Source of the DNA: an uncultured Bacilli bacterium
GTDB lineage: Bacteria > Bacillota_I > Bacilli_A > RFN20 > CAG-826
DNA: 43,593 bases
Direction: 5' to 3'
Assembly (NCBI GenBank): GCA_947625975.1
Contig: CANQQL010000006.1
Coordinates: 1 to 43,593 of the forward strand
Made by a program: the position numbers and the translations under genes. Below are positions 140-6,950 of this stretch, in pieces. Below the pieces are notes generated by a model, which did not search any database, was not told where the DNA came from, and worked only from the letters and a program-made list of their open reading frames with translations. Within the stretch, counting starts at the first letter, position 1; every line of letters begins with the position of its first letter.

Positions 140-169
140 TTGACTTTTTTCTCTAAAAATAGTTATAAT
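140..169 (+). promoter_or_regulatory. Sigma-A promoter of the TerB-like/protease locus
   Basis: A -35 box TTGACT (140-145) and a perfect -10 box TATAAT (164-169) are separated by 18 bp. The Shine-Dalgarno AAGGAG at 183-188 sits 8 bases before the ATG at 197. I see nothing recognisable in bases 1-139. Confidence 0.75.
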
Positions 170-196: not shown

Positions 197-835
197 ATGG
201 AAAATGAAGTAAAACAAACAGCTTTGGATAGCTATGACAAAATTATTAATTTACTAGAAAATATTTTTAAATCATGGAAAGAAACCTTTCAAAAAGAATT
301 TGATATTCGTGTAGGCCTTAATTGTTTTGATGTCCTTTTACAGTTTTCTATGTTGCAAATAGCGCTTAATGATGGTCAATTGCAAAGTGAAGAATTGGAA
401 TTTATACGAGATATTTCAAAATATTGCAATATTTGTGATTATTTTAATCAACGGGGTTATCAAAATGTTGAATGGCAGAATATCTTAAATACAGACGAAA
501 GCACATTAAAAGAAATTTTAAATGGCTTACAAGAGGATATTATTGATATTAGTATGGATTTTGTAAATATTTTCTCTTATGCCGATGCGGCTATAAGCAA
601 GTATAATTTCTTTGATTCTTTAAAAAATAATATTTTTAATATTTTGATAGCGGTTGCTAGTGCGGACAATAATGCGGACAAATCGGAATTTAATTGGTGC
701 ATTATTTTCGCAACACTCAATGAAATTGCAAAACGTAAACAAGCATATATAGATGCATTTAATAATCCTTCCAATCCTAATGGAGAAAACACGAATAAAA
801 AGTCTTTAAAGGATTTCTACGTAAAAAAAAAATAA
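197..835 (+). CDS. TerB-like helical domain protein, probable N-terminal half of a split protease
   Basis: 212 residues, mostly predicted helix. Two acidic repeats (LNDGQLQSEELEFI near residues 56-69 and VASADNNADKSEF near 153-165) resemble the paired Asp/Glu motifs of TerB (tellurite resistance B-like) domains; this is a motif-level match only, and the function is unknown. No signal peptide or membrane segment, so it is probably cytoplasmic. The start at 197 is supported by a well-placed AAGGAG and a strong promoter. The frame ends in VKKK-stop inside and just after a run of ten A (823-832). One base back, the other frame is open from 799 through a complete trypsin-like domain ending at 1440, so one extra A or a -1 slip would give a single protein of about 414 residues. 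It may therefore be half of a protein rather than a separate gene. Confidence 0.7.
   Translation: MENEVKQTALDSYDKIINLLENIFKSWKETFQKEFDIRVGLNCFDVLLQFSMLQIALNDGQLQSEELEFIRDISKYCNICDYFNQRGYQNVEWQNILNTDESTLKEILNGLQEDIIDISMDFVNIFSYADAAISKYNFFDSLKNNIFNILIAVASADNNADKSEFNWCIIFATLNEIAKRKQAYIDAFNNPSNPNGENTNKKSLKDFYVKKK
823..832 (+). other. A10 homopolymer at the TerB/protease frame junction
   Basis: Ten consecutive A between GT and TAATTAAT. The upstream frame stops at 833-835. The downstream frame is open from 799 and enters the protease domain without a good start codon. Slippery A runs of this length allow transcriptional slippage or -1 ribosomal frameshifting, and are also typical places for sequencing errors. 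I see no clear downstream stem-loop to stimulate ribosomal frameshifting. Confidence 0.75.
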
Positions 836-927
836 TTAATGCCGAAAGCCTAAAATTAGTAAATTATCTCAATAAAGAAAAAGCACTTGCTTATATTGAA
901 ACCGATACAGGGAGTGGTTCAGGTTTT

Positions 928-1440
928 ATGATTACAAGTAGTGGTTTATGTTTTACTTGTAATCATGTAGTGAATGGAGCTCAAGAAATATATGTTAGAC
1001 TCCAAGATAATGATGGAAACAACGTTGTCTACAAAGCCAACCCTGTTTATCAATCCGCGGAATATGATTTTGCAATTATCCAACTTGAAGATATCGAAGA
1101 TAATTACTTTTATGAAATTGAATTAGATTACAGTCATTTAACCACGGGTGATGATGTTGCAGTATATGGTTACCCTTTTGGTTCTAATTTAAATGATGAA
1201 GTTATGGAACTAGAACCTTCATTAACAAAGGGTTACATTGCTTCTAAAAATAAGGTCCAAGGTCAAGTTTGTTATTTTTTGGATATTCGCTCTGCCCCTG
1301 GTAATAGCGGTGGTCCAGTCTTTTCTTTAAAAAGCAATAAAGTAATTGGATATTTATGTGGTTCACTCGGAAATGATCAATCGAACATAATATTTATCAG
1401 AACGTTGGAACAATTTATTAAACTGCTCATAAAAGATTAA
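928..1440 (+). CDS. Trypsin-like (S1C/DegP-type) serine protease domain, start unclear
   Basis: 170 residues from the first in-frame ATG. The chymotrypsin-fold triad is complete: His in CNHVV (codon 964-966), Asp in EYDFAIIQL (1066-1068) and Ser in APGNSGGPV (1306-1308). The ATG at 928 is not a convincing start: no Shine-Dalgarno precedes it, and it cuts the first strand, because the codons before it spell TGSGSGF, the usual N-terminal strand of such proteases. The frame is open back to 799, after a stop at 796-798, with no ATG, GTG or TTG. The domain therefore most likely belongs to the same polypeptide as the TerB-like domain upstream, joined by slippage at 823-832, or the locus is a recent frameshift pseudogene. 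No signal peptide is visible on either half, which suggests a cytoplasmic protease. Substrate unknown. Confidence 0.75.
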   Translation: MITSSGLCFTCNHVVNGAQEIYVRLQDNDGNNVVYKANPVYQSAEYDFAIIQLEDIEDNYFYEIELDYSHLTTGDDVAVYGYPFGSNLNDEVMELEPSLTKGYIASKNKVQGQVCYFLDIRSAPGNSGGPVFSLKSNKVIGYLCGSLGNDQSNIIFIRTLEQFIKLLIKD

Positions 1441-1451
1441 TTAAGTTAAAA

Positions 1452-1492
1452 AAACTCTAAACATTTAGTTGATGTTTAGAGTTTCGTTTTCT
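1452..1492. terminator. Bidirectional rho-independent terminator
   Basis: A 13-bp perfect stem (AAACTCTAAACAT at 1452-1464 pairing with 1472-1484) with a 7-base loop, flanked by an A run on the left and a T-rich run on the right. It ends the protease transcript on the plus strand and the glm operon on the minus strand. The stop codon of the minus-strand pseudouridine synthase (1476-1478) lies inside the stem. Confidence 0.85.
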
Positions 1493-2294
1493 TTTTAATA
1501 TTTAGTAAATTTTTCGTAATCGGATGAGTAAATATTAAATTATAGCATTCTAATTTTAAGTCAATGTCTTTATCATGGCCATATAACGAATCACCAATTA
1601 CAGGATGATTTATACTTGAAAAGTGCAATCTTATCTGATGTGTTCTTCCTGTTAATAAATGAACTAATAATGTGGTATTATCTTGATCATATTTTAGAAC
1701 TTTATATTCAGTGATACTCTTTTTTCCGTCTGAACATATGATGCGTTTCTTAGTGTCATGAGGATCTTTTTTTATGGGAAATTTAATAATTCCGTTTTCT
1801 TTTATAATTCCATGTACTGTTACAAGATAGTATTTATCTATTAACGTATTTTGAAAAAGGTTATGAATATATTGATGTTTAGCAAAAAGCACTAAACCCG
1901 ATGTTTCATAATCTAGTCGTGTCACACAATGAATTTTCCCCTGAATATTATGCTGTAAATAATAATGGCTAACATCGCTCGCTAAATTATCTAAATAATG
2001 ATTAAAAGTAGGAATAGTAGCCTGATTTTTTTTCTTAAAAACAATCAGTATATATTCATCTTCATATATGATGTCTAATGGCGATGATGATTCACCATAA
2101 ATTTTATTATCTTCAATTAAATTGATAGTCAATTCATCACCCATTTTTAAATTGAAATTTTCGATTGGTTTGTTGTTAACTAAAATATTTTCGGGGTGAT
2201 GATAAAGATAATGACTTAAATTATAAGAGAAGCCAAAATCTTTTAAGGTTGAAATTAAATCATTGTTTTTGTGGATAGAATATAAAATTTTCAT
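1476..2294 (-). CDS. RluA-family RNA pseudouridine synthase
   Basis: 272 residues. An S4-like RNA-binding region (about residues 14-60, ILVNNKPIENFNLKMGDELTI) is followed by the pseudouridine synthase domain. The catalytic Asp is D128 in the motif VTRLDYETSGLVLFAK, and the later motif GRTHQIRLHF is also present. The family converts uridine to pseudouridine in rRNA or tRNA in the cytoplasm; RluA, RluC, RluD and the Bacillus YlyB/YjbO types cannot be told apart here. It is the last gene of glmS-glmM-glmU-rluA; its ATG lies 3 bases after the glmU stop with no clear Shine-Dalgarno, which suggests translational coupling. There is no known functional link to UDP-GlcNAc synthesis. Confidence 0.88.
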   Translation of the reverse strand: MKILYSIHKNNDLISTLKDFGFSYNLSHYLYHHPENILVNNKPIENFNLKMGDELTINLIEDNKIYGESSSPLDIIYEDEYILIVFKKKNQATIPTFNHYLDNLASDVSHYYLQHNIQGKIHCVTRLDYETSGLVLFAKHQYIHNLFQNTLIDKYYLVTVHGIIKENGIIKFPIKKDPHDTKKRIICSDGKKSITEYKVLKYDQDNTTLLVHLLTGRTHQIRLHFSSINHPVIGDSLYGHDKDIDLKLECYNLIFTHPITKNLLNIKKKTKL

Positions 2295-6921: not shown

Positions 6922-6950
6922 ATAATAAAAAAAAAATAACAAAATGACAA
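6922..6950 (-). promoter_or_regulatory. Sigma-A promoter of the glmS operon
   Basis: On the minus strand, TTGTCA (6950-6945), 17 bp, TATTAT (6927-6922). This gives a leader of about 150 bases before the glmS ATG, containing the two palindromes at 6857-6879 and 6894-6919. The gap between glmS and the phosphatase gene (6767-7065) otherwise holds only A/T-rich sequence and the opposing promoter. Confidence 0.65.

Follow-up and report, generated by a model that had tools for sequence, protein, structure and literature searches.

The window, that is, the whole stretch of 43,593 nucleotides analysed here, is the entire contig C6 (CANQQL010000006.1) of the 1.27-Mb genome of a rumen/gut-type bacterium (66 contigs, 89% complete). 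Near its start, two overlapping open reading frames are found on the forward strand. The first of them, ORF1 (197–835), codes for an all-helical, weakly TerB-like protein of 212 amino acids with the C-terminus ...LKDFYVKKK, and its 3' end reads GTA AAA AAA AAA TAA: a run of exactly ten A (823–832), a putative slippage site that contains A_AAA_AAA, is followed directly by the zero-frame stop TAA (833–835). The second frame, -1 relative to ORF1, is open from 799 to 1440 and encodes a trypsin-like serine protease. The first ATG, GTG or TTG of this frame is ATG 928, which lies inside the protease fold, 3' of its TGSGSGF strand, while upstream of it the -1 frame offers just ATA 832, ATT 835 and ATT 895; the linker at 833–927 is readable only in the -1 frame and has no ATG, GTG or TTG. 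A -1 shift at the A run gives a fusion of 414 residues, and the slippery run sits at the overlap of the two ORFs in the correct register. The initial annotation had claimed that ORF1 ends at a ten-A run, that the protease frame is open from 799, that the TGSGSGF strand precedes any possible start codon and that a frame change at the run restores a 414-residue protein, and all of this was confirmed, the third claim for ATG, GTG and TTG.

The best match to a sigma-70-type promoter 5' of the gene is TTGACT-18-TATAAT (140–169, forward strand, 11 of the 12 consensus positions), and the Shine-Dalgarno sequence of ORF1, AAGGAG, is located at 183–188 of the same strand. A pattern search places an intrinsic terminator with a 14-bp stem 3' of the protease, at 1452–1484, and the two ORFs are therefore probably transcribed together. 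Judged by these consensus matches, the promoter, AAGGAG, the two ORFs and the terminator are predicted to form, probably, a single unit. The terminator (1451–1485 when both strands are considered) is bidirectional, as it serves both the protease gene and a convergent pseudouridine synthase gene (1476–2294, minus strand), the last codons of which fall within the stem.

The protease domain matches PF13365 with an E-value of 1.8e-20 and a score of 74.6 bits versus a cut-off of 27.6. Alignment to the Deg/HtrA proteases assigns the catalytic His to CAT 964–966, Asp to GAT 1066–1068 and Ser to AGC 1306–1308 (in GNSGGP), all on the forward strand and all invariant in four orthologs. The full-length Deg/HtrA family TIGR02037 scored under its cut-off (64.9 versus 416.2 bits), and a PDZ domain was absent from the Pfam matches. 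In the predicted structure of the protease domain of an ortholog (L020), the fold matches that of DegP with a Z-score of about 14; the full-length model of the unbroken ortholog had a pLDDT of 65 overall and was poor in the protease half. PADLOC reported matches over the protease only, namely to the defence-system proteases RT-Protease_XI, LmuA, HamA and Avs1b. Since neither a signal peptide nor a membrane segment was evident by eye, the enzyme is likely to be cytoplasmic.

The gene had been described initially as a TerB-like domain joined to a protease. The protease part of this description is clear, whereas the TerB part is weak: ORF1 matches PF05099 with an E-value of 2.2e-4 and 21.9 bits, below the cut-off of 24.4. 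The ortholog L024 scores 24.9 bits on the same profile, and 4 of 12 relatives match it at E ≤ 0.01. The predicted structure of ORF1 is confidently all-helical (pLDDT 86), no PDB entry matched the model at E ≤ 0.001 (best Z 5.6), and comparison of the helical domain using Foldseek and VIA-align gave no clear TerB entry, a result that is uninformative either way. Relatives that stand alone, about 200 residues long, were found both elsewhere in the family and in a second family of the class, suggesting that the helical domain is a module used alone or with several partners. In that second family, TerB-like proteins of about 190 residues lie beside a two-domain acetyltransferase, as tandem copies in two loci (L064-L067). 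Elsewhere, one stand-alone TerB-like gene adjoins HipA-like pieces (L025, 2529–3541) and another adjoins a nuclease-like protein (L033, 2099–3517), either by chance or as parts of a system.

Among 114 close genomes searched, both parts of the gene were present in one other genome of the same genus, G002 (RUG131, public contig ONAT01000001.1). Its gene shares both the position and the -1 register of the break, at GTAAAAAAAAACTAATTAATG, after which the protease continues in that frame; the junction reads GTA AAA AAA AAC TAA, the run being nine A capped by C, and the stop is kept as TAATTAATG. The promoter of G002, at the matching place, fits the consensus in 12 of 12 positions (TTGACA-18-TATAAT). 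Identity between the two genes is 43% over ORF1 and 63% over the protease, and 21 of the 31 linker residues agree. Neither part was found in G001 and G003, which are closer members of the genus: the GlmS identity to the genome studied is 78-79% for these two, 68% for G002 and 48-49% for two other genera. With GlmS just 68% identical between the two carriers of the split gene, the split is old if it had a single origin.

The initial annotation had proposed looking for full-length fusion homologues in related genomes, and these do exist. An uninterrupted one-frame gene coding for 413 and 434 residues was found in two genomes of other genera of the same family: L020 in G237 (a metagenome-assembled Erysipelotrichaceae, RUG14810) and L024 in G162. 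The junction of L020, GTA AAG AAA AGC GAG ATT AAT, has no long A run. Homologues in which the two parts are separate genes with good starts were not found. As the unbroken orthologs make the fusion alone, the fusion probably represents the functional ancestral state, to which this genus would have added the short product, as far as can be judged from these sequences. The split form was seen in only two genomes, and the four-sequence tree neither supported nor rejected the sisterhood of the two split genes (AU p 0.53 versus 0.56); hence two origins or a transfer are possible. No match was returned by a search of genome contigs with ORF1 alone or by a search of viral contigs with the fusion as the query, and a class-wide search of 395 genomes gave, outside the order, just stand-alone TerB-like proteins. 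Within the genomes searched, the TerB-like-trypsin protein is therefore found in one bacterial family only. We did not find such an architecture in the literature either, the sole near case being a mention of TerD-trypsin (PMC2605481). The neighbouring genes, named by eye from their translations, differ between all the loci read: the window has a pseudouridine synthase gene and glm genes, G002 has a pepT-like gene together with rplS, L020 lies with genes for an XRE-type regulator and for a permease, and L024 lies with infB and rbfA. Beside these loci we saw neither a partner nuclease nor a defence gene.

To see how the two halves evolve, the window was compared with G002 by codon position. The differences at positions 1/2/3 amounted to 91/59/127 in ORF1 (p 5e-9) and to 51/38/107 in the entire -1 part (p 3e-14); the start-less linker alone showed the same direction, 8/6/12, not significantly. 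Since the excess of third-position differences is in the ORF1 frame before the run and in the -1 frame after it, the switch of frame coincides with the A run in both species. Judging by this two-species comparison, both halves are under purifying selection at the protein level, ORF1 in the zero frame and the protease part in the -1 frame. Synonymous conservation was raised at the junction (14/16 versus 99/195, p 0.007 for a chosen window), and was not significant once the best window anywhere was allowed (p 0.12-0.76).

These results bear directly on the idea that the break is an error of sequencing or assembly, the cell itself having an ordinary gene, or else a frameshift that is recent or decaying and leaves a pseudogene. 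In its favour, homopolymers are error-prone, and two closer members of the genus lack the gene. However, G002, a second species assembled independently, shares the -1 register and has a different run (A9 C), and there is purifying selection on both sides of the run. Because the same -1 break occurs in a species with 68% GlmS identity and both halves are under purifying selection, recent frameshift and sequencing error, two of the four readings left open by the initial annotation, are now unlikely, and we regard error or decay as hardly probable. A second gene of the genome with a frameshift at an A run, a tyrosine recombinase (L041/L062), was rejected as a similar case: it is decayed, being broken at several places, whereas the split protease gene has one break. 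At L062 (G000:C5, 1834–2735) the recombinase is spread over three frames, with one of the breaks at A9, near a SipW/TasA-like cluster.

Long A runs are rare in this genome. In the whole 1.27 Mb there are six runs of at least ten A and 21 of exactly nine, the majority of them intergenic, and those within genes include dnaX and whiA (named by eye), both of which remain in frame. Sampling 16 ORFs of the window gave 22 A7 and four A8 as the runs of seven or more A, and no A or T run longer than eight. With long A runs so rare and mostly intergenic, and with the break recurring in a second species, the break at the A run is not a matter of chance. The window contains another A10 run (6927–6936), which is intergenic and lies upstream of glmS.

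We also considered whether two separate products might be made, with translation stopping at TAA 833 and then starting again, at AUU 835, which overlaps the stop, or at another site, to yield a stand-alone protease. In both species the stop and the ATT overlap (TAATT), and initiation at AUU is reportedly known, e.g. in IS911. Nevertheless, the window has no ATG, GTG or TTG 5' of the first protease strand, a GTG of G002 (L018, 2193) has no counterpart in the window, and the Shine-Dalgarno-like sequence AAAGGA is 21 nt from the ATT, too far for ordinary initiation. The unbroken L020 has ATT-AAT as well, so these codons are explained as coding for Ile-Asn. Such re-initiation thus seems very unlikely to us.

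Taken together, the break kept in a second species and the unbroken gene in other genera suggest that the full enzyme is probably made by slipping, which was also among the readings left open initially and is now the best supported one. We consider it probable that 197–1440 is one gene, the halves of which are joined by slippage-dependent expression; the occurrence of slippage, its frequency and the making of both products are what we infer. Without a slip, translation would end at TAA 833 and leave the 212-residue TerB-like domain alone. The 414-residue protein would be made either by transcriptional slippage, in which some transcripts acquire an additional A within A10, or by a ribosomal route, in which some ribosomes move back by one base on A_AAA_AAA. 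This full-length product would carry an active trypsin-like (Deg/HtrA-type) domain. The two routes appear about equally likely, with a slight lean to transcription, given the 9-10 A in the run. As for the ribosomal route, a heptamer of the X_XXY_YYZ type is in frame in both species (A_AAA_AAA, in G002 also A_AAA_AAC), and an internal Shine-Dalgarno-like hexamer, AAAGGA (808–813, forward strand), precedes the A run by 9 nt and is identical in G002 (TTA AAG GAT). In the sampled ORFs, a Shine-Dalgarno-like 5-mer stands at the right distance from 2% of positions, and from none of the 23 other runs of seven or more A. The hexamer is common to both split orthologs, weak evidence as it comes from two sequences, and L024 has AAAGAT there. 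The search for a 3' stimulatory RNA structure gave nothing significant (z -0.5 and -1.6), and a hairpin that abuts the run in G002 is weakened in the window and was not convincing as a stimulator. The tRNA-Lys set gives no support, since the UUU and CUU anticodons are both present. In E. coli reporter cassettes, frameshifting reached 63, 40 and 10% on 11, 9 and 7 A, respectively (PMC3711429), which makes a substantial slipping fraction plausible. A single conserved direction of the shift has been taken as favouring ribosomal frameshifting (PMC3711429), a criterion for which more than the two sequences compared here would be needed.

A long homopolymer within a coding region may also serve phase variation, the last of the initially open readings: replication slippage would alter the length of the run between cells and turn the protease on or off, and the assemblies would have caught the majority 'off' state. 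Defence systems, whose proteases this one resembles, sometimes phase-vary, and poly-A tracts can do so too (PMC3711429, PMC1088944). Yet the same off register would be needed in both species, the run of G002 is capped by C at nine A, and the in-frame version was not seen in the genus. Phase variation therefore seems improbable, if somewhat less so than re-initiation or error.

Returning to slippage at the A run, such recoding is ordinary in kind and new in this protein, whose split gene is real and conserved, and most likely recoded. Among the closest known cases is tssM1 of C. rodentium, where A11 precedes the stop and experiments have shown both the slippage and the need for the two products (PMC4256274). 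Both genes have a long A run abutting the zero-frame stop and a C-terminal domain in the next frame, with full and short products, which are predicted for the gene described here; the gene described here differs in having A10/A9, in coding for a protease, in being known from sequence, and in its Shine-Dalgarno-like hexamer, reported absent in tssM1. Similarly, the magnesium chelatase fs-genes found by GeneTack are -1 pairs at poly-A that are kept across species and that other taxa have as unbroken fusions (PMC3711429), although they concern another protein, have a wider phylogenetic spread and were reporter-tested. Small trypsin-like domains fused to other domains are likewise known from the Hachiman, AVAST, Lamassu and DRT defence systems (PMC12799240), unlike which the loci read here had no nuclease partner or defence gene beside them.

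The fusion architecture suggests a role for the helical domain in regulating or targeting the protease, which may be gated by it. Tentatively, slippage at the A run might act as a built-in dose control that sets how much of a TerB-like-only partner or inhibitor is made relative to a cytoplasmic protease that could be toxic, perhaps as a single-gene stress or anti-phage effector. If slippage is confirmed, a protease will join the short list of non-mobile bacterial genes that keep an A run for expression, and the two split and two unbroken species will offer a natural comparison in which the role of the short product can be asked about. A gene caller would report two products instead of one, a short TerB-like protein and a piece of the protease that lacks its first strand, and the enzyme would thus be lost from annotation.

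The gene dnaX provides a further parallel, as slippage at an A run gives two length variants of one protein there as well. In E. coli, this is a -1 ribosomal frameshift with an upstream Shine-Dalgarno stimulator, and in Thermus it is transcriptional slippage at A9 (PMC1088944). A slip in dnaX leads to a shorter product, whereas here it would add an enzyme domain, with no clear 3' stem-loop. The dnaX gene of the genome studied (L047, G000:C13:27188-27198) contains A9 in frame near its midpoint, where one added A would bring in an immediate TGA stop (AAT TGA), and slippage would accordingly give a short DnaX.
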